From Paracoccus sp. JM45 (GTDB lineage: Bacteria > Pseudomonadota > Alphaproteobacteria > Rhodobacterales > Rhodobacteraceae): DNA of 64,000 nt. This document shows positions 4,130-63,100 of this stretch, in pieces; positions within the stretch are counted from its first letter, which is position 1; each line of letters starts with the position of its first letter. The notes beneath the pieces were generated by a model. That model was not told where the DNA came from, made no database searches, and was given only the letters and a program-made list of their open reading frames with translations. A program made the position numbers and the translations under genes. The DNA is taken from the NCBI RefSeq assembly GCF_003590715.1, contig NZ_QQVY01000009.1:62001-126000 (forward strand), given 5' to 3'.

Positions 4130-4202
4130 ACCTGCGGCCCCTAAGTCCGGCAGTGGGACACCCTTCCCCAACGAAGGGCTTTATAGCTGGAAGGCTAGTC
4201 AC
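4130..4202 (+). promoter_or_regulatory. Candidate serC leader RNA element
   Basis: The serC leader contains a perfect 6-bp hairpin, CCCTTC-(cccaac)-GAAGGG at 4161-4178, preceded by GGGACA and followed at 4183-4193 by a GGAAGG that serves as the ribosome site of serC. A conserved structured RNA of alphaproteobacteria, the serC motif, is known at this position upstream of serC. The layout and hairpin agree with my memory of that motif, but I could not run a covariance model. Confidence 0.6.
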
Positions 4203-5348
4203 ATGACCGAGTTGAAGACCCCGGAAACGCGTCCGGCAAACCCGCGCTTTTCTTCTGGCCCTTGCGCCAAGATCCCCCAATACAATCTGGACATGCTTGC
4301 CGACGCGCCCTTGGGCCGCTCGCATCGCGCTGCCATTGGCAAGTCGAAACTGGGCGAAGCCATCGACTTGACCCGCGAAGTCCTGAACGTTCCCGCCGAT
4401 TACCGCATCGGCATCGTCCCCGGTTCCGACACCGGCGCGGTCGAGATGGCGATGTGGACCATGCTGGGTGAACGCCCCGTGGAAATGCTGGCTTGGGAAA
4501 GCTTCGGCGAAGGCTGGGTCACGGATGCCGTGAAACAGCTGAAGCTGGACGCCACCGTCCGCAAAGCCGATTACGGTCACATCGTTGATTTCGCCGAAGT
4601 CGATTTCAACAAAGACGTCGTCTTTACATGGAACGGCACCACCAGCGGCGTGCGCGTTCCCAATGGCGATGCGATCCCCGCCGACCGTCAGGGCCTGACC
4701 ATCTGTGACGCCACCAGTGCGGCATTCGCCATGGACCTGCCGTGGGACAAGCTGGATGTCGTGACCTTCAGCTGGCAGAAAGTGCTGGGCGGCGAAGGCG
4801 CGCACGGGATGCTGATCCTGTCGCCCCGCGCGGTCGAGCGCCTGGAAAGCTTTACCCCCGACCGCCCCCTGCCCAAGATCTTCCGCCTGACCAAAGGTGG
4901 CAAGCTGATCGAAGGCATCTTCAAGGGTGAAACGATCAACACGCCCTCGATGCTGGCGGTTGAAGATTATTTGGTCGCGCTGAAATGGGCCCAAGGACTG
5001 GGCGGTGTATCGGGTCTGGTTGCCCGTGCGGATGCCAATGCCAAGGCAGTTCGTGATTTCATCGCGGACAAAGACTGGATCGCCGATCTGGCCGCTGATC
5101 CCGCCACCGGTTCGACCACCAGCGTCTGCCTGAAGTTCACCGACCCTGCCATCAAGGACGGCGCTGCCTTTGCAAAGGCTGTGGCCAAGCGGTTGGACAA
5201 GGAAAACGTGGCGCTGGACGCCGGTGCCTATCGTGATGCGCCTGCCGGTCTGCGGATCTGGTGCGGCTCGACGGTCGAGACCAGCGACGTGGCAGCCCTG
5301 ATGCCGTGGATCGAATGGGCCTATCGCGCCGAGCTGGCCGCGCAGTAA
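4203..5348 (+). CDS. serC: Phosphoserine aminotransferase
   Basis: PLP-dependent class V aminotransferase converting 3-phosphohydroxypyruvate and glutamate to O-phosphoserine and 2-oxoglutarate. The 381-residue length fits the alphaproteobacterial type. Visible are the N-terminal [11 protein letters not shown] substrate loop, the [23 protein letters not shown]-site region and the [14 protein letters not shown] segment with the PLP lysine. The ATG at 4203 follows a GGAAGG at 4189-4194. serA follows after 127 bases, so the two make a serine-synthesis operon or adjacent units. Confidence 0.96.
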
Positions 5349-33829: not shown

Positions 33830-34654
33830 ATGCTGTTCAAGCAACGCCAAAGCCGGAACATGTTACAGGCGGCATTCACGACGCTTGCGCTGATATACCA
33901 CCAAACGGTCTATAACCTGCGAAACGGACACCGGAATGCGGCGATTGGCCTGCTTTTGACCGTGGTACAAACGACTTTAATGTTGCTCATTTTCTTAGGC
34001 TTGTATCGACTGGTGGGGATTAAAAGCACGCCTCTACGAGGCGACTTCCTTCTATATATCATGTCGGGAATTTTCGTTTTTATGCTTCACGTACAAACAG
34101 TTGGTGCAATTGCAAGCTCTCACTCTGTTTCTTCTGGGATCATTAAGCACCAGCCTTTGAACGCTGCTGTTTTGATTTCGGGAGCAGCACTGGCAGCCTT
34201 GTACAAGCAGGTGATCAGCATTCTTGTACTGCTACTTGCTTATAATGCTTTTTTTTCACCGATCGAAATTTATGACCCATTAGGAGCAGCAATGCTCTTT
34301 GGCCTAGCGTGGTTTTCAGGTGTTTGTGTCGGCTTCTTGTTTCTTGGTATTCGGCCTTGGTCTCCCGCCACAGCTACTTTGTTAACCACCCTCTACCAGC
34401 GGGTGAATATGTTTGCCTCGGGGAAATTCTTTGTTGCCAATGTCATGCCCAACTTCCTGCTGCCGTGGTTCATCTGGAATCCCCTGTTCCACCTGATCGA
34501 TCAGGAACGCGGATTTCTGTTCATCAACTACTCGCCGCATAAAACATGGCTAATGTATCCTTTCTGGTTCTCGATCGCGACGCTGATGGTCGGACTGCTG
34601 ATCAACTTCACGACCCGCAAGCACGAATCGATCAGTTGGGCGGCAACTCAGTAA
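33830..34654 (+). CDS. ABC-2 type transporter permease, polysaccharide export type
   Basis: A 274-residue inner-membrane protein with six predicted membrane segments, similar in plan to KpsM/Wzm-type permeases that export capsule or O-polysaccharide. No ATPase gene (KpsT type) or outer-membrane export gene is next to it. The middle of the gene (about 33970-34430) is much richer in A+T and uses codons unlike the ends, for example TTA, ATA, AGC-poor stretches and a run of eight T. The last 200 bases return to the local composition. This points to acquisition or recombination within the gene. Confidence 0.8.
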   Translation: MLFKQRQSRNMLQAAFTTLALIYHQTVYNLRNGHRNAAIGLLLTVVQTTLMLLIFLGLYRLVGIKSTPLRGDFLLYIMSGIFVFMLHVQTVGAIASSHSVSSGIIKHQPLNAAVLISGAALAALYKQVISILVLLLAYNAFFSPIEIYDPLGAAMLFGLAWFSGVCVGFLFLGIRPWSPATATLLTTLYQRVNMFASGKFFVANVMPNFLLPWFIWNPLFHLIDQERGFLFINYSPHKTWLMYPFWFSIATLMVGLLINFTTRKHESISWAATQ

Positions 34655-46686: not shown

Positions 46687-46759
46687 GACGGTCCTTCGCT
46701 GTCCTCTGGCCCCTGTATCTAGCTGCTTGCGTGCGGCGGTTAAACCTTTACATTCACCC

Positions 46760-46848
46760 CAACCTCGGGGTGCCCAAATGGGCTGAGACGCAATCGCGGA
46801 CCCGTTGAACCTGATCCGGTCTTACACCCGGCGGAGGGAAGGTGACGG
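46760..46848 (+). promoter_or_regulatory. TPP riboswitch (THI element) controlling thiBPQ
   Basis: The leader contains the core of the thiamine pyrophosphate riboswitch in order: CTCGGGGTGCCC, the pyrimidine-sensing GGCTGAGA (46781-46788), ACCCGTTGAACCTGATCCGG, then ACACCCGGCGGAGGGAAGG, closing with GTGA. It ends about 40 bases before thiB. In proteobacteria such elements usually block translation or cause termination when TPP is plentiful. Confidence 0.95.
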
Positions 46849-46887
46849 CTGTCCTTTCTTTCGAAACCCGTTTGAGAGGAGACTGCC

Positions 46888-50067: not shown

Positions 50068-50149
50068 GATGCCGAACCACTGAAGAATATGTTCCCGCAA
50101 GGGAAACTCCTTGCTAACCTCCTGCCAGAGCATCATGGGAGGAGACCAC

Positions 50150-51106
50150 ATGTTCCATCGTATCGCCGCCGCATTGCCGATGGCTGCCTTCGGGGGCCTG
50201 ATGGCAACCGCGCCGATGGCGCAGGCGCAAGATTTCATCAATGTGCTGACGGGGGGCACCTCGGGGGTCTATTACCCCTTGGGCGTTGCCATATCGGAAA
50301 TCTATGCCGAAGGTATCGAAGGGTCGCGCACGCAGGTGCAGGCCACCAAGGCCAGCGTCGAAAACCTGAACTTGCTGGCCCAAGGCCGCGGCGAAATTGC
50401 CTTCGCCCTTGGCGACAGCGTCCAAGCCGCGTGGGAGGGGAATGAAGAAGCCGGCTTCCCCCGCCCGTTGGAAGAATTGCGCGCCATTGCCGCCATCTAT
50501 CCCAACTATATCCAGATTGTCGCGGATGCTTCCGCAGGCGTGACCACTCTTGAGGATCTGCGTGGCAAGACCATGTCCGTTGGTGCCCCCGCATCGGGCA
50601 CCGAACTGAACGCCCGCGCCATTTTTGCCGCCGCCGGCATGAGCTATGACGATCTGGGCAAGGTCGAATATCTGCCCTTCGCGGAATCGGGTGAGCTGAT
50701 CAAGAACCGCCAGCTGCAATCGACGTTGCAATCATCGGGTCTAGGCGTGGCCTTCATCAAGGACCTGTCCTCGACCCATGACATCAGCATCGTGGCCATT
50801 CCAGAAGACACCGTCAAATCCATCGGCGCGCCTTTTGTGCCCGCGATCATCCCTGCGGGCACCTATTCGGGACAGGATCAGGATGTGCCGACCGCCGCTG
50901 TCGGCAATATGCTGATCAGCCATGAAGGCGTGTCCGAGGAAACCGCCTATCAGATGACCAAGCTGCTGTTCGAAAATCTGGACCGTTTGAAATCGGCCCA
51001 TGCGGCAGCGGGCGGCATCTCGGCAGAAACCGCGCTGGACGGAATTTCCATCCCGCTGCATCCGGGGGCTGAACGTTATTATCGCGAGATCGGCCTGATC
51101 GAATAA
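50150..51106 (+). CDS. TRAP transporter solute-binding protein, TAXI family
   Basis: A 318-residue periplasmic binding protein of the TAXI type. After the signal peptide (cut near AQA) come the family marks INVLTGGTSGVYYPLG (residues about 28-43), GEIAFALGDSV and VGAPASGTELNARAI. It delivers a carboxylate, probably a dicarboxylate or amino acid such as glutamate, to the fused permease encoded next. GGAGGAG at 50138-50144 fixes the ATG at 50150. Confidence 0.9.
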   Translation: MFHRIAAALPMAAFGGLMATAPMAQAQDFINVLTGGTSGVYYPLGVAISEIYAEGIEGSRTQVQATKASVENLNLLAQGRGEIAFALGDSVQAAWEGNEEAGFPRPLEELRAIAAIYPNYIQIVADASAGVTTLEDLRGKTMSVGAPASGTELNARAIFAAAGMSYDDLGKVEYLPFAESGELIKNRQLQSTLQSSGLGVAFIKDLSSTHDISIVAIPEDTVKSIGAPFVPAIIPAGTYSGQDQDVPTAAVGNMLISHEGVSEETAYQMTKLLFENLDRLKSAHAAAGGISAETALDGISIPLHPGAERYYREIGLIE

Positions 51107-51115
51107 GCGACTGTC

Positions 51116-51139
51116 GACCCGCAGCATCAGCTGCGGGTC
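51116..51139 (+). terminator. Hairpin between the TAXI binding protein and its permease
   Basis: GACCCGCAG-(catcag)-CTGCGGGTC is a perfect 9-bp stem followed by AATTT. Placed between a binding protein and its permease, it most likely protects the upstream message or terminates part of the transcripts, so that more binding protein than permease is made. Confidence 0.6.
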
Positions 51140-51161
51140 AATTTCCATCGAAAGGTCCCCG

Positions 51162-53267
51162 ATGTCCGCATCCCCTCCCCCCGCAAGCGGGTCCGCCACG
51201 CTTGATCCCACCGCCGAGGCCGAATTCAGCGAAGGACTGCCCCCCGGTTTCGGCACCGGCATTATGGGCCGCGTCGCCTTCTGGCTGGCGGTCGTGTTTT
51301 CCCTGTTCCAGCTGTGGGCCGCCGGTTACGGCAGCCTGCCCAGTCAAGTCGTCCGCGCCATGCATGTGGGGTTCCTGCTGCTGCTGGGCTTCGGCCTTGT
51401 CGGCAACCTCGTCGCCAGAACGCAACGTGGCCAGATTTTCTTCTGGGCGCTTGGTATCCTTGGTTTCAGCACCGGCATCTATAACTGGGTTGAATATAGC
51501 GACCTGATCCGCCGCACCGGTTTTCTGACACAGATGGATCTGGTGATGGGCACCATCCTTGTCGTTCTGGTGTTTGAGGGTGCGCGCCGCCTGATGGGAT
51601 GGCCGCTTGCCGCGATCGCGGGGATATTTCTGGCCTATTGCTTCCTTGGCCAGCATCTGCCGCCGCCCTTCATCCATCGCGGCTATGGCTTTGAACAGAT
51701 CGTCGAACATTTCGCCTTCGGGACCGAGGGCATCTATGGCAGCCCGATCTATGTCAGCAGCGCCTATATCTTTATCTTCGTGGTTTTCGCGGCCTTTCTT
51801 GAACGCGCGGGCATGTTGAACCTGTTCAACGATTTCGCCCTTGGGCTGGTCGGTGGCGTGCGCGGCGGGCCTGCACAGGTGGCGGTGCTGTCATCGGCGC
51901 TGATGGGGACCATTTCGGGGTCGGGGGTGGCGAATGTTGTCGCATCCGGTCAGTTCACCATCCCGATGATGAAGAAATCCGGCTTCAAACCGGCCTTCGC
52001 TGGCGGGGTCGAGGCGACGGCCTCCATGGGCGGCCAGATCATGCCACCCGTCATGGGTGCCGTGGCTTTCATCATGGCCGAGACGTTAAACGTTCCCTAT
52101 GCATCCGTGGTCAAGGCGGCGATCATTCCCGCAGTGCTGTATTTTGGCGTCGTCTTCTGGATGGTCTGGCTGCAGGCCGGACGCGACAACCTGAAGGGTC
52201 TGCCCCGTGCCAGCTTGCCGAACCCGTGGCACGCTGTGCGCGATCAATGGCCGCTGGTGCTGCCGCTGGCCGCTTTGGTCTATCTGCTGTTCGCGGGCTA
52301 TACGCCGATCTTTGCAGGCACGATGGGTCTGGCGCTGGTGACGGTGCTGATCCTTGGCGCACCACTGGCGGCGATGATCGGACCATACGCCTTCCGCGTC
52401 ATCTTCTGGCTGGCGCTTGGGATCGCCTCGGCGCTGTTCCTGAAATACGGGATCAACCTGCTGGTCGCGGTGATCGCTGCGCTGGTGCTGGCCTGCGCGA
52501 TGTCCAAAGGTGCCCGCCCGACCATCGGCATCATCCGTGATGCATTGGCCCAAGGGGCGCGTAACGCCCTGCCCGTCGGCATGGCCTGCGCCATCGTCGG
52601 CGTGGTCATCGGCACGCTGACGCTGACCGGCATCGCATCGACCTTTATCGGGGCGATCATCGCCATCGGTCAGGATAACCTGTTCCTGTCGCTGGTACTG
52701 ACCATGCTGACCTGTCTGGTGCTGGGGATGGGGATCCCGACAATCCCGAACTATATCATCACCTCGTCCCTTGCGGGTCCGGCGCTAATGGAGCTGGGGG
52801 TCCCCCTGCTGGTCAGCCATATGTTCGTCTTCTATTTCGGGATTATGGCCGATCTGACACCGCCCGTGGCGCTGGCCTGTTTTGCGGCGGGGCCGATTGC
52901 CAAAACCTCGGGGCTGAAAATCTCGATGCAGGCCATCCGGCTGGCGGCGGCGGGGTTCATCATTCCGTTCATGGCGGTCTATACGCCATCGCTGATGTTG
53001 CAGGATGGTGGACCGATTGCCGCCCAATGGGGCTATCCGGTCGAGGTCGCCTATATCCTGCTGAAGACCGTTCTGGGCGTGGGGCTGTGGGGTGTGGCGA
53101 TGGTCGGGTATTTCCTTGACCGCACCAATGTCGTCGAACGCACGCTGGCCTTCGCCGCAGGGGTGGCGCTGATTGTGGCGATGCCGCTGTCGGACGAATT
53201 GGGCTTTGCGCTGGCGCTGGCCTTCGGGGCGATGCACTGGCTGCGGCTGCGCAAGGTCGTGGCCTGA
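51162..53267 (+). CDS. TRAP transporter permease, fused 4TM/12TM subunits
   Basis: A 701-residue inner-membrane protein joining the small (DctQ-like) and large (DctM-like) TRAP permease parts, the form that goes with TAXI binding proteins. The DctM core is visible in AVLSSALMGTISGSGVANVVASGQFTIPMM type sequence (residues about 244-273), GGVEATASMGGQIMPPVMGA and GMGIPTIPNYII. It is sodium-driven in this family. The next gene (DUF1850) begins on the last base of its stop. Confidence 0.92.
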   Translation: MSASPPPASGSATLDPTAEAEFSEGLPPGFGTGIMGRVAFWLAVVFSLFQLWAAGYGSLPSQVVRAMHVGFLLLLGFGLVGNLVARTQRGQIFFWALGILGFSTGIYNWVEYSDLIRRTGFLTQMDLVMGTILVVLVFEGARRLMGWPLAAIAGIFLAYCFLGQHLPPPFIHRGYGFEQIVEHFAFGTEGIYGSPIYVSSAYIFIFVVFAAFLERAGMLNLFNDFALGLVGGVRGGPAQVAVLSSALMGTISGSGVANVVASGQFTIPMMKKSGFKPAFAGGVEATASMGGQIMPPVMGAVAFIMAETLNVPYASVVKAAIIPAVLYFGVVFWMVWLQAGRDNLKGLPRASLPNPWHAVRDQWPLVLPLAALVYLLFAGYTPIFAGTMGLALVTVLILGAPLAAMIGPYAFRVIFWLALGIASALFLKYGINLLVAVIAALVLACAMSKGARPTIGIIRDALAQGARNALPVGMACAIVGVVIGTLTLTGIASTFIGAIIAIGQDNLFLSLVLTMLTCLVLGMGIPTIPNYIITSSLAGPALMELGVPLLVSHMFVFYFGIMADLTPPVALACFAAGPIAKTSGLKISMQAIRLAAAGFIIPFMAVYTPSLMLQDGGPIAAQWGYPVEVAYILLKTVLGVGLWGVAMVGYFLDRTNVVERTLAFAAGVALIVAMPLSDELGFALALAFGAMHWLRLRKVVA

Positions 53268-53635
53268 TGCTGTGTGTGGCCAGCGGGGCGTTTCTGCTGT
53301 CGCTGGCCACGGCGGAATTTACGCTGGATTGGCAGCATTCGGTCGAACACACCCTCTGGTGGGAACGCTGGCGGATAACCGATGCGGGGCTAGCCCCCGT
53401 CGCGGCGCGGATCACCGCATCAGGCGCAGGGATGGAGCCCCCGCCCGATGCCGTTCTGCGGGATGGTGTGTGGGAATTTACCCCGACCGTCCCGCCACAG
53501 CGCGATATCTGGCTGGGCGCATCGGGCGCGTCAATGGGGGGCTGGCAGCTATGTGCAGGCGGTCAGTGCCATGATCTGCCGGAAGGGGACGGGCCACTGC
53601 ATCTGTGGTCCGCCCCCGATTGCACCCGACCCTAG
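53267..53635 (+). CDS. DUF1850 domain-containing protein
   Basis: A 122-residue protein of the DUF1850 family, commonly found directly after TAXI-type fused TRAP permeases. It keeps the family HSVEHTLWWERW motif (residues about 24-35) and has an N-terminal hydrophobic segment, so it may be membrane-attached or exported. Its function is unknown; the overlap (TGATG) with the permease suggests a role in that transporter. Its TAG stop shares a CTAG with the stop of the convergent small gene. Confidence 0.82.
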   Translation: MLCVASGAFLLSLATAEFTLDWQHSVEHTLWWERWRITDAGLAPVAARITASGAGMEPPPDAVLRDGVWEFTPTVPPQRDIWLGASGASMGGWQLCAGGQCHDLPEGDGPLHLWSAPDCTRP

Positions 53636-53736
53636 ACGATCCACAGCCGGATCAGGAAAGCCACCGTTCCGATACAGGCAACACTGGCCAGCCAGATACC
53701 CACGAACCACGCGAATTTTCCAAGGCCTTGGCGCAT
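53632..53736 (-). CDS. Small membrane protein of the bd oxidase operon (DUF2474 family, CydX-like)
   Basis: A 34-residue protein, MRQGLGKFAWFVGIWLASVA followed by CIGTVAFLIRLWIV, with a single membrane helix. It begins on the last base of the cydB stop (TGATG). Proteins of the DUF2474 type are regularly encoded after CIO-type cydAB and probably are the counterpart of CydX, which stabilises the oxidase. It is too short for most ORF calling. Its TAG overlaps the DUF1850 stop. Confidence 0.78.
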   Translation of the reverse strand: MRQGLGKFAWFVGIWLASVACIGTVAFLIRLWIV

Positions 53737-54767
53737 CAGTGATATCCTTCACCGGGCATGATCTTGCCGCGGAACACCCAATAGGAAAACGCGGTATAGG
53801 CAAGGATGATCGGCACCAGAACCGCCGCCCCCACCAGCATGAAAATCTGGCTGTTGCGGGGGGCGGCTGCTTCCCAGATGGTGATCTCGACGGGGACGAT
53901 ATAGGGGAACATCGAAAAGCCCAGACCGATGAACCCAAGGACGAACATGCCCAAGGCAAAGAAAAACGGCCAGTAATCATGGTGCCGGACGGTCAGCGTC
54001 CGGAACATGCCAAAGGCCAGCGCCAGCACGGCCACCCCGACGCCCACGGCCAGCGCGATGTTCCAGCCCCCGAACCAGCGGCTGTAATAGCCGTCCTGCA
54101 GGAAGGGCGTCCACAGGCTGACAACGCCGATAAAGATCACCGTCGCGATGCCCAGCACCCATGCCTTGCGCTGCATCCGCGACTGCAGCGGGCCTTCGGT
54201 TTTCATGACCAGCCATGTCGCACCCAGCAACATATAGCCCACCATGACGGCCACCCCGACCATCACCGAAAACGGCGTCAGCCAGTCCCACCACCCGCCA
54301 GCATAGGCGCGGCCCGCCTTGTCGATGTCGATGCCCTGCAACAAACCGCCAAGTGTGATGCCCTGTGCAAGTGCGGCCATTGCCGACCCGCCGATAAAGG
54401 CCACATCCCAGACCCCGCGCCAGCGCTTGGTGCGCCAGCGGAATTCGAAGGCTACGCCGCGGAAGATCAGCGCCAGAAGCATGGCGATGATCGGTGCGTA
54501 CAGTGCGGGAAGGATCAGCGCATAGGCCAGTGGAAAGGCCGCAAGCAGCCCCCCGCCCCCCAGCACCAGCCATGTTTCATTGCCGTCCCAGACCGGCGCG
54601 ACCGAGTTCATCATGACATCACGATCCTCCGAGTCCTTCTCGGTCGCGAACAGCATGCCAAGACCAAGGTCGAACCCGTCAAGGACCACATAGACCAGAA
54701 CCGCAAAGGCAATCACGAATGCCCAGATGACGGTCAGATCGAAAGAGACGCCTTCTGCAATGGTCAT
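53736..54767 (-). CDS. cydB: Cytochrome bd-type quinol oxidase subunit II
   Basis: A 343-residue inner-membrane subunit with about nine helices. N-terminal features are typical of CydB: VVLDGFDLGLGML (residues about 28-40), the WDGNETWLVLGGGGLLAAFP quinol-oxidase signature (about 60-79) and FRGVAFEFRWRT. It pairs with CydA, whose stop lies one base before this gene's start, and with the 34-residue protein downstream. Confidence 0.94.
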   Translation of the reverse strand: MTIAEGVSFDLTVIWAFVIAFAVLVYVVLDGFDLGLGMLFATEKDSEDRDVMMNSVAPVWDGNETWLVLGGGGLLAAFPLAYALILPALYAPIIAMLLALIFRGVAFEFRWRTKRWRGVWDVAFIGGSAMAALAQGITLGGLLQGIDIDKAGRAYAGGWWDWLTPFSVMVGVAVMVGYMLLGATWLVMKTEGPLQSRMQRKAWVLGIATVIFIGVVSLWTPFLQDGYYSRWFGGWNIALAVGVGVAVLALAFGMFRTLTVRHHDYWPFFFALGMFVLGFIGLGFSMFPYIVPVEITIWEAAAPRNSQIFMLVGAAVLVPIILAYTAFSYWVFRGKIMPGEGYH

Positions 54768-54768
54768 G

Positions 54769-56217
54769 TCATTCTCCGGTTTGGGCGGGGTTGGGCTTTT
54801 TGTTCAGATGCTGCTGGGCGGGCGTGGTCCCTGCCGTGCGCGTCGGGCTGTTGGTAACATCCTTCAGGCGCGGTTCGGCACTGGCAGGGGCACGGTTCAT
54901 CAGGCGCATGATATAATATGTGCCTGCCCCGAAGACCGCAAAATAGACCACGACAAAGGCCATCAGCGATGCTCCGACCGCAGCGGAATCCAGTGGCGCG
55001 GCACTGTCGCTGGTGCGCAGGAAACCATAGACCGTAAAGGGCTGCCGACCTACCTCGGTCGTGACCCAGCCTGCCAGCACGGCGATCAGGCCTGATGGCG
55101 CCATGACAAGGGCAGCGCGGTGCAGCATTGTCCATTCGTAAAGGCGACCCCGCACGCGGGCCAACAGCGACCATGCACCGATGCCCAGCATTGCAAAACC
55201 GATCGCGATCATGATGCGGAACGACCAGAAGACGATGGCAACAGGGGGCTGGTCCTCGCGCGGGATGGTGTCCAGCCCGTCCAGCGGCGCATTCAGGTCA
55301 TGTTTCAGCACCAACGAGGACAGCTTGGGGATACCAACCGCATAATCCAGCCGCTGTTCTTCCTGATTGGGAATGCCGAACAGGTACAGCGGCGCGCCGT
55401 CGGGGTGGCTGTCGAAGTGACCCTCCATCGCCATGACTTTGGCGGGCTGGTGTTCCAGCGTGTTCAGCCCGTGCAGATCGCCTAGGAAAATCTGGACCGG
55501 TGCAAAAACCGCGGCCATCCACATGGCCATGGAGAACATCGTCCGCGTGGCGGGGCTGACCATATCGGGGCGACGGCGGTGGCGCAGCAGATGCAGGGCC
55601 GCAACGCCACCGACGATAAAGGCCGTCGTCAGATAGGCCGCCGTGACGGTATGCATCAGGCGATATGGGAACGAGGGGTTGAAGATCACCTGCCAGAAAT
55701 CGGTAGGCAGGAACTGACCGGTCTCGGGGTCGATCTCGAAGCCGGCGGGGGTGTGCATCCAGCTATTCACCGACAGGATCCAGAAGGCCGAAATCGCAGT
55801 TCCGACCGCCACCGCAAGGCAGCCGATCATATGCAGCGTCGCGCCGACGCGGTCACGACCGAACAGCATGATGCCCAGAAAGCCCGCCTCAAGGAAGAAG
55901 GCCGACAGCACTTCGTATGCCATTGGCGCACCGATCACCGGCCCCGCCTTATCGGAGAATACCGACCAATTGGTGCCGAACTGATAGGACATCACAATGC
56001 CCGACACGACGCCCATGGCGAAGGCAAGGGCGAAAATCTTCACCCAGTAACGGAACGCATCCAGATATTTGCTGTCTTTGGTCCATAACCACAATCCGTT
56101 CAGGACCGCCAGAAAACTGGCCAGACCGATCGTGAATGCCGGAAACAGAAAATGGAACATGACCGTGAATGCGAATTGTATTCGGGCCAGCAGGACGGCG
56201 TCTACGCTTTCGAACAT
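54769..56217 (-). CDS. cydA: Cytochrome bd-type quinol oxidase subunit I, short Q-loop (CIO) type
   Basis: A 482-residue subunit carrying the hemes of a terminal quinol oxidase. It has LLARIQFAFTVMFHFLFPAFTIG with the heme His near the N terminus, SYQFGTNW, MEGHF, and GWVTTEVGRQPFTVYGFLRT (residues about 385-404). The Q-loop between them is short, as in the cyanide-insensitive CioA group, not the E. coli long form. I use the ATG at 56217, six bases after AAAGG; a GTG seven codons upstream is possible. Such oxidases work at low oxygen or when the bc1 route is inhibited. Confidence 0.93.
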   Translation of the reverse strand: MFESVDAVLLARIQFAFTVMFHFLFPAFTIGLASFLAVLNGLWLWTKDSKYLDAFRYWVKIFALAFAMGVVSGIVMSYQFGTNWSVFSDKAGPVIGAPMAYEVLSAFFLEAGFLGIMLFGRDRVGATLHMIGCLAVAVGTAISAFWILSVNSWMHTPAGFEIDPETGQFLPTDFWQVIFNPSFPYRLMHTVTAAYLTTAFIVGGVAALHLLRHRRRPDMVSPATRTMFSMAMWMAAVFAPVQIFLGDLHGLNTLEHQPAKVMAMEGHFDSHPDGAPLYLFGIPNQEEQRLDYAVGIPKLSSLVLKHDLNAPLDGLDTIPREDQPPVAIVFWSFRIMIAIGFAMLGIGAWSLLARVRGRLYEWTMLHRAALVMAPSGLIAVLAGWVTTEVGRQPFTVYGFLRTSDSAAPLDSAAVGASLMAFVVVYFAVFGAGTYYIMRLMNRAPASAEPRLKDVTNSPTRTAGTTPAQQHLNKKPNPAQTGE

Positions 56218-56259
56218 CTGAGACCTTTCGACGTTCACCTTATACGGACGGCACCGGTT

Positions 56260-57422: not shown

Positions 57423-57442
57423 AAGGGGCCCGAAGGCCCCTT
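57423..57442 (-). terminator. Intrinsic terminator after dctP
   Basis: On the minus strand AAGGGGCC-TTCG-GGCCCCTT, an 8-bp stem with a stable UUCG tetraloop, is followed by TT and CGC. It starts eight bases after the dctP stop. Confidence 0.8.
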
Positions 57443-60460: not shown

Positions 60461-60979
60461 CTAGTTAATGTCCAGCCGTGTCACCTTGCCGCCAAAGAAT
60501 GCCAATGGATCGCCATCGCGCAGATGCGCATGCGTGACCTGCCCGACAATGATGGCATGATCGCCAGCCTCATGGACGGCGTGGCGCGTGCAGTCAAAGC
60601 GGGCCAGACAATCCGCAATGACCGGCACGCCGTCATCATTCAACTGCATCTTGTCGCCGGTCAGCGCTGCCTGATTTCGGGCCACATCAAAAGCCAGCGA
60701 TTCCTGTTCGGCACCCAGGATATGGATCGCATAATGCTGTGCCCCGACAAAGGCAGGATAGCGTGACGAACTGCGTGCGGGCGACCACAGAACCAGCGGC
60801 GGATCCATCGAGACCGATGAAAAGCTGTTGGCCGTGATCGCGACACACCCGTCGCGGCCCTTTGTCGTCACAATGGTGACGCCGGTGGCAAAGCGTCCGA
60901 AGGCGTCGCGCAGCAACCGGCCATTATCAGGGGCGGGGATAAAACTGCGGTGACCGGATGCGAATGCCGTACCGGTCAT
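60461..60979 (-). CDS. Flavin reductase (HpaC/SmoA-like), supplies reduced FMN to the monooxygenase
   Basis: A 172-residue flavin:NAD(P)H reductase of the split-barrel family. Family marks are LRDAFGRFATGVTIVTTKG (residues about 23-41), ANSFSSVSMDPPLVLWS (about 50-66) and a closing GDHAIIVGQV. It would reduce free FMN for the two-component monooxygenase encoded two genes upstream, the role of SmoA in sulfoquinovose desulfonation. Its start overlaps the aldo/keto reductase stop by one base (TAATG), so the three are co-translated. Confidence 0.88.
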   Translation of the reverse strand: MTGTAFASGHRSFIPAPDNGRLLRDAFGRFATGVTIVTTKGRDGCVAITANSFSSVSMDPPLVLWSPARSSSRYPAFVGAQHYAIHILGAEQESLAFDVARNQAALTGDKMQLNDDGVPVIADCLARFDCTRHAVHEAGDHAIIVGQVTHAHLRDGDPLAFFGGKVTRLDIN

Positions 60980-61869
60980 TATGCAACCTCGTGGCCGAGG
61001 GCGGCCTGATACAGGCGGAACCACTGCTGGCGGTCCAGATCGACCTTGGCCGCATCCGAAATCGCCGCAATGCGCGACAGGGAATTGGTGCCCAGAACCG
61101 GCATGATGGTCGCCGGATGGCGCAACAGGAAGGCAACCGCCACCGCAGCACGGTCCACACCGAATTCATTGGCCAGTTCATCCAGCACAGCCGCCACAGG
61201 GCCATCGCCGGTCATCAGGCTGCCACCGCCCAAGGGCGACCATGCCATCACGGCATCGCCACGCTTCTGGTGGAACGCCAGATCGCCATTGTTGAACGGT
61301 GCGACACTTGCCAGTGAAATCTCGATCTGGTTAGTAACCAGCTTGGTGTTCATTGCCGATTGCAGCAGTTCAACATCCCATGGGCGGAAATTCGACACGC
61401 CAACCGCGCGCAGTTTGCCTTCGCGCACCAGTGCATCAAGAACGCCGCCGGTTTCGTGGTGATCCAGTAACGGATCGGGACGGTGGATCAGCAGCAGGTC
61501 CAGATGGTCCGTGCCGAAATCACGAAGCGAACTTTCGACCGAGGCACGGATATGCGCCTCGGAGGTGTCATAATGCTTGCACGACACATCGGCATATTTC
61601 CCACAGGGGGCCACGATGTCGCATTTGCTGATCAGTTCGATCTTGTTGCGCAGGCCGGGGTCGGCCTTCAACGCGGCACCAAGGATCGCCTCGGCAGTAT
61701 AATTGCCATAGATATCGGCCTGATCCAGCGTGGTAATGCCCTGATCCAGACAGGCGTCGATCTTGGCACGCACATGCGTGACCGAGGTGTCGGTATCATC
61801 GCCAATACGCCACATGCCATAGACAAGGCGCGACAGCGAAAGACCTTCGGTAAGGGTAACACGTTCCAT
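60979..61869 (-). CDS. Aldo/keto reductase, candidate 6-oxo-glucose reductase (SmoB-like)
   Basis: A 296-residue NAD(P)H-dependent aldo/keto reductase. The catalytic tetrad is visible as Asp49 and Tyr54 (LDQADIYGNY), Lys82 (ELISKCDI) and His129 (LLLIHRPDP). The cofactor end has PVLGTNSLSRI. In the sulfo-SMO pathway an aldo/keto reductase turns the aldehyde left after C-S cleavage, 6-oxo-glucose, into glucose; the gene order here fits that role. The ATG at 61869 is joined to the monooxygenase stop (TGATG). Confidence 0.88.
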   Translation of the reverse strand: MERVTLTEGLSLSRLVYGMWRIGDDTDTSVTHVRAKIDACLDQGITTLDQADIYGNYTAEAILGAALKADPGLRNKIELISKCDIVAPCGKYADVSCKHYDTSEAHIRASVESSLRDFGTDHLDLLLIHRPDPLLDHHETGGVLDALVREGKLRAVGVSNFRPWDVELLQSAMNTKLVTNQIEISLASVAPFNNGDLAFHQKRGDAVMAWSPLGGGSLMTGDGPVAAVLDELANEFGVDRAAVAVAFLLRHPATIMPVLGTNSLSRIAAISDAAKVDLDRQQWFRLYQAALGHEVA

Positions 61870-63023
61870 CAGCGGCGTTCTCCTGCGCCAAGCGGCGTCT
61901 GCGGCGTCGTTGCGGGGACGCGGCCCCATTCACGGTTCAGCTGGCAGGTTTTCATCTGCGGCAGCACGCGGGTTCCGAAATGTTCGGCCTCATCGATATG
62001 CGGATAGCCTGACAGGATAAAGGACCGGATGCCCATCTTCTGTAATTCTTCCAGCTTGGACAAAACCTGATCGGTCGATCCGACGATGGCAGCGCCACAG
62101 CCCGACCGCGCACGACCAACGCCGGTCCACAGATTCGGTTCGATATAACCTTCAAGATCGGCCAGTTCGCGGTTGCGCGCCTGACGGCTGACCCCAAGCG
62201 AGGTCGCATCCAGCGCCCGTTCGCGAATCAGCTTGCCCTGTTCGTCATCCAGCTTGGACACGATATGTCGGGCATATTCGCGTGCCTCGGCTTCGGTATC
62301 ACGGACGATGACATGGGCGCGGAAACCGTAATCCAGCACGCGGCCATGACGTTCGGCGGCGGCATGGGCGGCCTTCATCCGGTCGGCAATATCTTCGGTT
62401 TTTTCAGGCCACATCAGGTAAACATCGCAATGTTCCCCGCACAGGTCCAGCGCGGCCGGCGAATAGCCGCCAAAATACAGCATCGGCCCGACCGTCTGAT
62501 AGGGCTTGACCGGATCTGTGTTCACATCGCTGAAATCATAGACTTGGCCATGGAAGTCGATCTTATCCTGCGTCCATGCCTGCTTCAGGATCTGCACCAC
62601 TTCGCGCGAGCGCTGGTAACGGTAATCGCTGTCGGCCTTTTCGCCCGGAAAATCCGAGGAGATGATGTTGACCGTCAAACGCCCCTGCATCATGTGATCC
62701 AGCGTGGCGATGGTCCGTGCCAGCATGATGGGCTGCATTTCACCGCAACGCACCGCCGCCAGCATGTTGATTTTATCCGTGATCGGCGCACAGCCCGCCA
62801 CGAAGGACAGGGTATCCTGCCCCACCTGATAGGACGACGGGCACAGGATGTTTCCGAATCCCTGCTGTTCGGCGGTTTTCACGATGTTCGAACAATGCGC
62901 CCAAGAGGACTTCAGATCGGGGTCCGGAACGCCCAGAAACTGGTAATCATCGGAACAAAGTGCCGAAAACCAGGATATTTCGACCTTGTCCAGATCGGCC
63001 GATGTCACGGGTACGACGGTCAT
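61869..63023 (-). CDS. SsuD-like FMNH2-dependent sulfonate monooxygenase, candidate sulfoquinovose monooxygenase (SmoC-like)
   Basis: A 384-residue class C flavin monooxygenase of the bacterial luciferase fold, aligned by eye with E. coli SsuD over its length. It keeps the residues that line the SsuD sulfonate and flavin site: Arg235 and His237 (FRAHVIVRD), Arg306 (GVGRARSGCG) and Tyr340-Pro-His342 (LSGYPH), and an aromatic Trp205 in YLMWPEK. It lacks the Cys54 equivalent of SsuD. It should cleave a C-S bond with O2, giving sulfite and an aldehyde. It is the first gene of the operon, divergent from the GntR gene. Alkanesulfonates remain an alternative substrate class. Confidence 0.85.
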   Translation of the reverse strand: MTVVPVTSADLDKVEISWFSALCSDDYQFLGVPDPDLKSSWAHCSNIVKTAEQQGFGNILCPSSYQVGQDTLSFVAGCAPITDKINMLAAVRCGEMQPIMLARTIATLDHMMQGRLTVNIISSDFPGEKADSDYRYQRSREVVQILKQAWTQDKIDFHGQVYDFSDVNTDPVKPYQTVGPMLYFGGYSPAALDLCGEHCDVYLMWPEKTEDIADRMKAAHAAAERHGRVLDYGFRAHVIVRDTEAEAREYARHIVSKLDDEQGKLIRERALDATSLGVSRQARNRELADLEGYIEPNLWTGVGRARSGCGAAIVGSTDQVLSKLEELQKMGIRSFILSGYPHIDEAEHFGTRVLPQMKTCQLNREWGRVPATTPQTPLGAGERR

Positions 63024-63055: not shown

Positions 63056-63100
63056 TGCATAGCCGTGTCCATGATGTAGATCAATGGTGTATCAATTGTT
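63056..63100. promoter_or_regulatory. Divergent control region of the sulfonate operon
   Basis: Between the monooxygenase and GntR genes, two ATCAAT hexamers (63080-63085 and 63091-63096) lie eleven bases apart, one helical turn. They fall in an AT-rich stretch within an otherwise GC-rich region. A TTGCAT-N16-TAGATC pair at about 63056-63083 could be a plus-strand promoter. Both fit control by the adjacent GntR protein but are not proven. Confidence 0.4.

Follow-up and report, generated by a model that had tools for sequence, protein, structure and literature searches.

Sulfoquinovose (SQ) is the sugar of the sulfolipids of plants and algae. It is made and degraded at an estimated ∼10 billion tons yearly (PMC10755693), a turnover so large that the identity of the degraders matters for carbon and sulfur cycling. 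In the sulfoquinovose monooxygenase (sulfo-SMO) pathway, SQ gives sulfite and 6-oxo-glucose (6-dehydroglucose), and the latter is converted to glucose (PMC9594981, PMC12890257). Published examples of this pathway come from Agrobacterium, Novosphingobium and the Roseobacter clade (PMC10755693, PMC13372026, PMC9594981, PMC12890257), and marine members of the Roseobacter clade are reported to have a sulfoquinovosidase of family GH188 almost universally in their sulfo-SMO clusters (Kaur et al. 2023, PMC10755693). Here we analyze a locus in a 64,000-nucleotide stretch of Paracoccus sp. JM45 (the window; positions 62001-126000 of its contig, from a genome of 3.6 Mb in 81 contigs), where an annotation made by a model from the letters alone (the original prediction) had recognized an SsuD-like monooxygenase, an aldo/keto reductase and a flavin reductase and had proposed that they degrade SQ or a related sugar sulfonate. 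We conclude, with a probability of ∼95%, that the locus is a sulfolytic SQ cluster of the Roseobacter/Paracoccus type; the identity, tree position and fold match of its SmoC, the likeness of its SmoB and its GH188 neighbor all agree with that proposal.

The locus shares SmoC, SmoB, SmoA and GH188 with the Roseobacter-clade clusters, and no difference from them was found in the text consulted, which names neither a transporter nor a regulator for them (PMC10755693). The Agrobacterium tumefaciens smo cluster encodes the same three enzymes but imports sulfoquinovosyl glycerol (SQGro) through an ATP-binding cassette (ABC) importer (PMC9594981), whereas the Paracoccus locus carries genes for a tripartite ATP-independent periplasmic (TRAP) transporter. 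Matches to SmoB and SmoC lie inside a window of 10 open reading frames (ORFs), the arrangement by which sulfo-SMO is recognized in print (PMC13372026). The Novosphingobium SquD/SquF (sulfo-ASMO) type, represented by a plasmid locus of N. pentaromativorans (L144), also has adjacent SmoC- and SmoB-type genes, but their products are 52.8% and 37% identical to those of Paracoccus, an annotated alpha-glucosidase, a LacI regulator and a TonB receptor are features of its own, and its 17 kb stretch yielded no relative of SmoA, SqgA, GntR or the TRAP genes and no ATTGAT repeat of the kind described below.

The Smo enzymes and their GH188 neighbor

All three ORFs of the original prediction are present at 60461-63023 on the minus strand, and their Pfam matches (Bac_luciferase, 180.7 bits; Aldo_ket_red, 175.6 bits; Flavin_Reduct, PF01613, 119.3 bits) bear out the assignment to an SsuD-family enzyme, an aldo/keto reductase and a flavin reductase. 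The genes had been described as fused into one translational unit; the one-base stop/start overlaps between smoC, smoB and smoA (TGATG and TAATG) are real, but by appearance they suggest translational coupling and not fusion.

Among solved structures, the monooxygenase scored highest with 7olf (671.9 bits; 74.7% identity) and 7oh2 (653.2 bits; 72.8% identity), both of whose Protein Data Bank (PDB) titles refer to the oxidative desulfurization of SQ, with that of 7olf naming A. tumefaciens; chains of MsuD and SsuD reached at most 189.5 bits, and identity to the SsuD/MsuD rows was 32-35%. The best E-values to solved structures, 2.4e-201 for the monooxygenase and 6.5e-126 for the aldo/keto reductase, are far beyond chance. 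In a tree of 36 chosen rows, a branch with 100/100 support parted SmoC, 7oh2, 7olf and the cassette-borne SmoC rows from 10 SsuD/MsuD-type rows, namely nine SsuD-type rows of the genus and MsuD (7jv3, by its PDB title); the SsuD-type row L136 scores under the SsuD cut-off, and a long-branch warning was issued for a few rows, the SmoC studied here not being one of them. Clustering with SsuD or methanesulfonate enzymes, the grouping that would speak for a substrate other than a sugar, was thus not seen. A structure model of the 384-residue protein (23 rows, mean pLDDT 70.1) likewise had 7oh2 as its best fold match (Z 38.4; rmsd 3.2 over 342), followed by 7olf (Z 37.8) and then MsuD (Z 35.5). By these comparisons SmoC is closer to the SQ monooxygenases than to SsuD or MsuD.

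The sulfonate-site residues on which the original prediction had leaned (Arg235, His237, Arg306 and Tyr340-Pro341-His342) are present in SmoC, but they do not discriminate it from SsuD. They were identical in 108 of 108 SmoC-type rows and in 25 or 26 of 26 SsuD-type rows (rows longer than 300 residues, 108 of 109 and 26 of 28, respectively; the SmoC and SqgA row sets include some genomes twice). Because they are common to both groups, these residues mark the wider family, and we rejected them as evidence for a sugar sulfonate. In contrast to these shared core residues and the shared fold, 13 residues (S63, S64, Y65, Q66, V67, G68, Q69, E95, Q97, M204, P206, R304 and C309) occurred in 108 of 108 SmoC rows and were unseen in the 26 SsuD-type rows, as judged by the four commonest letters per column, and S307 occurred in 108 of 108 and 2 of 26 rows, respectively. 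Such positions are a useful extra for separating SmoC from SsuD where the active-site residues fail.

The best NCBIfam match of SmoC by name is SsuD itself (TIGR03565, 244.2 bits), which, with the common core residues, would favor an ordinary SsuD/MsuD system that uses simple alkanesulfonates as a sulfur source and has an unrelated aldo/keto reductase alongside. However, this score is far below the curated cut-off of 518.2, and the genome holds no TIGR03565 match at E <= 1e-100. SsuD operons usually carry an SsuABC importer, whereas here TRAP genes follow smoA; moreover, SmoB adjoins SmoC in all 80 of the named loci defined below, and a GH188 gene is close by. Given also the low identity to SsuD/MsuD and the tree position, we rejected a simple alkanesulfonate monooxygenase and consider that explanation extremely improbable.

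The aldo/keto reductase is nearest by far to 7bby, which we take to be SmoB of A. tumefaciens (422.8 bits; 64.9% identity; next family, 210.3 bits), so that the alignment with SmoB supports the sulfo-SMO assignment. Its motifs DQADIYG, SKC and IHRPD presumably carry the aldo/keto reductase tetrad. The third gene lies in the same overlapping run as smoC and smoB, and this position together with the PF01613 match points to a smoA-like flavin reductase with predicted use of FMN.

Beyond the regulatory gene gntR, which diverges from smoC, a Gfo/Idh-type gene begins 10 bases past gntR and crosses the window end; the contig stops 1,056 bases past the window, that is, 66 bases past this gene, sqgA. 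Its product scored 533.8 bits with 8zn9, which bears only the name 'Oxidoreductase, putative', 370.2 bits with 8qc2 and 363.8 bits with 8qc3, the last two being SqgA structures (PMC10755693). The SQ contacts named there for ArSqgA (Lys107, Tyr136, Arg166, Leu170, Lys172, Glu189, His193 and His321) have equivalents in Paracoccus SqgA (Lys107, Tyr136, Arg165, Leu169, Lys171, Glu188, His192 and His322), and all eight were matched in 104 of 104 locus rows as well (alignment longer than 340 residues). The published Glu163 is one position off in the alignment numbering; the neighboring column is Glu in every row, and Glu163 is thereby also shared. The GH188 sulfoquinovosidase beside the trio, absent from the original prediction, is the strongest support for the sulfo-SMO reading.

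The genome's lone GH31 match scored 243.2 bits with an alpha-glucosidase and 112.8 bits with YihQ, and we rejected it as a second sulfoquinovosidase because it resembles alpha-glucosidases. Within the cluster, as visible to 66 bases past sqgA, GH188 was found and no GH31 sulfoquinovosidase. The Agrobacterium cluster has a GH31 sulfoquinovosidase and a LacI regulator; in comparison with these types, the Paracoccus locus has GH188 and GntR-UTRA.

GH188 enzymes cleave both alpha and beta SQ glycosides (PMC10755693), and another Paracoccus degrades sulfofucose (PMC12421959). The same chemistry might therefore act on a related sulfosugar or glycoside, such as sulfofucose or a beta-linked SQ glycoside, and not on SQ of sulfolipid origin; the comparison of the transporter's binding protein, given below, does not fix the imported ligand. 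That other Paracoccus, however, uses a sulfofucolytic Entner-Doudoroff pathway and an ABC transporter (PMC12421959), whereas SmoC is 73-75% identical to enzymes titled for SQ and the published GH188 SQ contacts are retained, which makes this alternative quite unlikely.

Distribution and variants of the cassette

The original prediction had implied that such a trio is a surprise, but the cassette is common in the family. SmoC was found in 39 of 125 genomes of the genus (E <= 1e-60), 146 of 345 genomes of the family (E <= 1e-150; almost every genus represented by one genome) and 9 of 385 genomes of the class (E <= 1e-150, with 7oh2 as query), each count including the JM45 genome itself. Gene neighborhoods were compared in the best 80 of 582 confirmed loci (at least 595 stretches matched), a set of named loci that is biased to near relatives; each count covers only loci with enough flank and scores genes in the right place and on the right strand. 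Around SmoC, SmoA followed SmoB in 79 of 79 loci, GntR was present in 76 of 76 and SqgA in 74 of 76, and SqgA, GntR, SmoB and SmoA all surrounded SmoC in 78 of 80, the other two (L055 and L077) lacking SqgA. DctQ was in place in 64 of 79 loci, DctM in 64 of 79 and DctP in 64 of 78. This cassette is also present in the annotated records of Rhizobium sp. SL42 and Ruegeria sp. TM1040, which have genes labelled 'putative sulfate exporter' in its vicinity.

Variants were of several kinds. Consecutive ORFs occupy the TRAP position in L071 and L082, and one of them resembles an ABC ATPase by eye; no Pfam model matched the receptor-like ORF of L082. In five Paracoccus genomes searched for SmoB (L146-L150), a SmoB-SmoA pair lies apart from smoC; four of the five have no SmoB next to smoC on the stretch compared, and the cluster seems to be split or duplicated there. 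A more distant SmoC homologue on an Emticicia plasmid (L145:6489-7664; 51% identity) has a symporter and a GH95 enzyme and no aldo/keto reductase annotated beside it, and its substrate may differ.

Proposed transport, sulfite export and regulation

The TRAP genes dctQ, dctM and dctP lie downstream of smoA on the same strand, and no ABC importer was found in the cluster. A structure model of DctP (mean pLDDT 69.0) has the TRAP binding-protein fold (best Z 25.7). Numerous TRAP receptors, those for isethionate and ectoine among them, matched it with Z values a few units apart, which gives no hint of the ligand. Beyond dctP lies a gene of the PF03601 family whose product, YeiH, is a candidate sulfite exporter.

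Upstream of smoC, the repeat ATTGAT-N5-ATTGAT was exact in 100 of 103 distinct gntR-smoC intergenic sequences and in none of 100 composition-keeping shuffles; the remaining three sequences start inside the repeat, probably because tblastn starts replaced gene starts. These intergenic sequences are related, so the count does not represent independent events. Among 93 aligned sequences, bases that had no part in the choice of the motif were also conserved (spacer, 0.68-0.96; following TAC, 0.92-0.95), and most columns ahead of the repeat were only 0.28-0.51 conserved. The longer pattern ATTGAT-N5-ATTGAT-NTAC had one exact match in the JM45 genome, at smoC, and four matches with two mismatches; a control pattern had none. 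Rhizobium sp. SL42 also carries the repeat ahead of smoC, as do 5 of 5 class-level loci representing other families (L155-L159) and 2 of 3 additional loci from the same family as JM45 (L153 and L154; L152 has no exact match); the Novosphingobium and Emticicia loci yielded no such repeat. The repeat thus accompanies the GntR-type cassette across several families of the Alphaproteobacteria and was not found in the sole LacI-type cluster examined.

A −35-like hexamer, TTGATC, lies inside the second repeat, 17 bases ahead of TATGCA. Such a −35/−10 pair with a spacer of 16-18 was present in 78 of 103 intergenic sequences (shuffled mean, 0.01), and the pair was not picked up by a stricter consensus promoter scan. 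The ATTGAT repeat over the smoC promoter is likely an operator, and a repressor bound to it would block smoC. We regard as somewhat favored the proposal of a marine/Paracoccus form of sulfo-SMO that imports SQ or SQGro through a TRAP transporter and whose GntR-UTRA repressor recognizes a strictly conserved ATTGAT-N5-ATTGAT operator. Among the papers listed in literature searches, none dealt, by title or terms, with SQ and TRAP transporters and none, by title, with a sulfo-SMO regulator, Liu et al. 2023 and Sharma et al. 2022 falling outside these searches; the use of a TRAP importer where Agrobacterium has an ABC importer and the conserved smoC-promoter repeat are possibly new.

Several observations weigh against parts of this reading. 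For the enzymes, the fold margin of SmoC over MsuD is modest, the match of SmoA to the NCBIfam FerA model (206.1 bits) is below the cut-off of 260, and SmoB is missing beside smoC in four Paracoccus stretches (L095, L099, L100 and L111) and in L158 of another family. For sulfite, the YeiH protein scored 137.1 bits with TIGR00698, below the cut-off of 232.6, and only 27 of 74 named loci have the PF03601 gene in its place (47 do not). In addition, a hairpin parts this gene from dctP and may mark the operon end or attenuation before the exporter gene, and a genome search with PF03404 and PF04976, which does not cover other sulfite dehydrogenases, gave no sulfite-oxidizing candidate. For regulation, the bare repeat is exact in at least two other places in the genome (L163 and L165, among the four two-mismatch sites), so the bare repeat alone is not specific. 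For transport, the nearest solved structure to DctP scored 115.8 bits, so DctP has no close solved relative and any ligand assigned to it is a contextual guess; furthermore, a TRAP receptor is absent from 14 of 78 named loci.

These last two points, with no single solved TRAP receptor standing out as nearest to DctP, would also fit a transporter that carries another solute (a sugar acid or an ectoine-like compound) and is a mere neighbor of the Smo genes. Against this, the order SmoA-DctQ-DctM-DctP recurs in 64 named loci and in Rhizobium sp. SL42, and L032, which has no TRAP genes, has a binding-protein ABC transporter in their place, as exchangeable importers predict. We therefore consider a transporter for another solute unlikely and retain SQ or SQGro as the proposed ligand. 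The features of the locus are collected in Table 1.

Table 1. Features of the Paracoccus sp. JM45 sulfo-SMO locus, in window coordinates.
Feature	Coordinates	Strand	Basis or remark
smoC-like, predicted FMNH2-dependent sulfoquinovose monooxygenase, 384 aa	61869..63023	-	similarity to 7olf/7oh2, fold match
smoB-like aldo/keto reductase (predicted 6-oxo-glucose to glucose), 296 aa	60979..61869	-	similarity to 7bby
smoA-like flavin reductase, 172 aa	60461..60979	-	PF01613 and place after SmoB
TRAP transporter small permease DctQ, 195 aa	59817..60404	-	PF04290, 83.2 bits
TRAP transporter large permease DctM, 430 aa	58528..59820	-	PF06808, 398.3 bits; four-base overlap with dctQ
TRAP solute-binding protein DctP, 352 aa	57450..58508	-	PF03480, 188.8 bits; proposed sulfoquinovose/sulfoquinovosyl glycerol receptor
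G+C-rich hairpin and T run between dctP and yeiH	57423..57442	not assigned	possible terminator/attenuator
YeiH/PF03601 family putative sulfate/sulfite exporter, 339 aa	56382..57401	-	PF03601, 219.1 bits
Candidate operator ATTGAT-N5-ATTGAT-CTAC, upstream of smoC	63076..63096	-	conserved repeat
Putative smoC promoter	63056..63084	-	-35 TTGATC 63079-63084, 17-base spacer, -10 TATGCA 63056-63061
Divergent GntR-family regulator with UTRA ligand domain, 241 aa	63121..63846	+	PF00392 and PF07702
sqgA, GH188 sulfoquinovosidase (predicted NAD-dependent), 377 aa	63857..64000 (start only)	+	complete on contig at L002:4857-5990

Directly downstream of the cluster and on the same strand are cydAB, encoding cytochrome bd oxidase (53736-56238); L003, its double L083 and L084 likewise have CydA next to the cassette. 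Elsewhere in the window, a second TRAP-type set at 50111-53635 comprises an NMT1_3 (TAXI-like) receptor, a large permease with a DctM domain and a DUF1850 protein. Above-threshold Rfam matches were a serC leader (4151-4203), a TPP riboswitch (46756-46856) and a Ruegeria cis2 small RNA (34397-34545).

Proposed pathway and its meaning

From the gene identities, order, conservation and residues described above, we infer the substrate, transport, export and regulation as follows. DctPQM would import SQ or SQGro, and SqgA would release SQ from glycosides through a transient C3 oxidation that uses bound NAD. With reduced flavin provided by SmoA, and O2, SmoC would cleave the C-S bond to give sulfite and 6-oxo-glucose, which SmoB would convert to glucose; a glucokinase, present in the genome, could then feed the glucose into metabolism. 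The YeiH-family protein may export the sulfite, or sulfate formed from it. GntR-UTRA probably represses smoC through the ATTGAT repeats over the −35 element and would be released upon binding of a pathway metabolite.

As a sulfo-SMO cluster, the locus extends a known route to one further genome, and the frequency of SmoC among the sampled genomes of the family is a useful extra. The TRAP importer and the operator are two testable parts worth study: if the proposal is true, a single motif upstream of smoC would predict SQ regulation class-wide, and in DctP there would be a TRAP receptor whose ligand is a sulfosugar or a sulfosugar glycoside.

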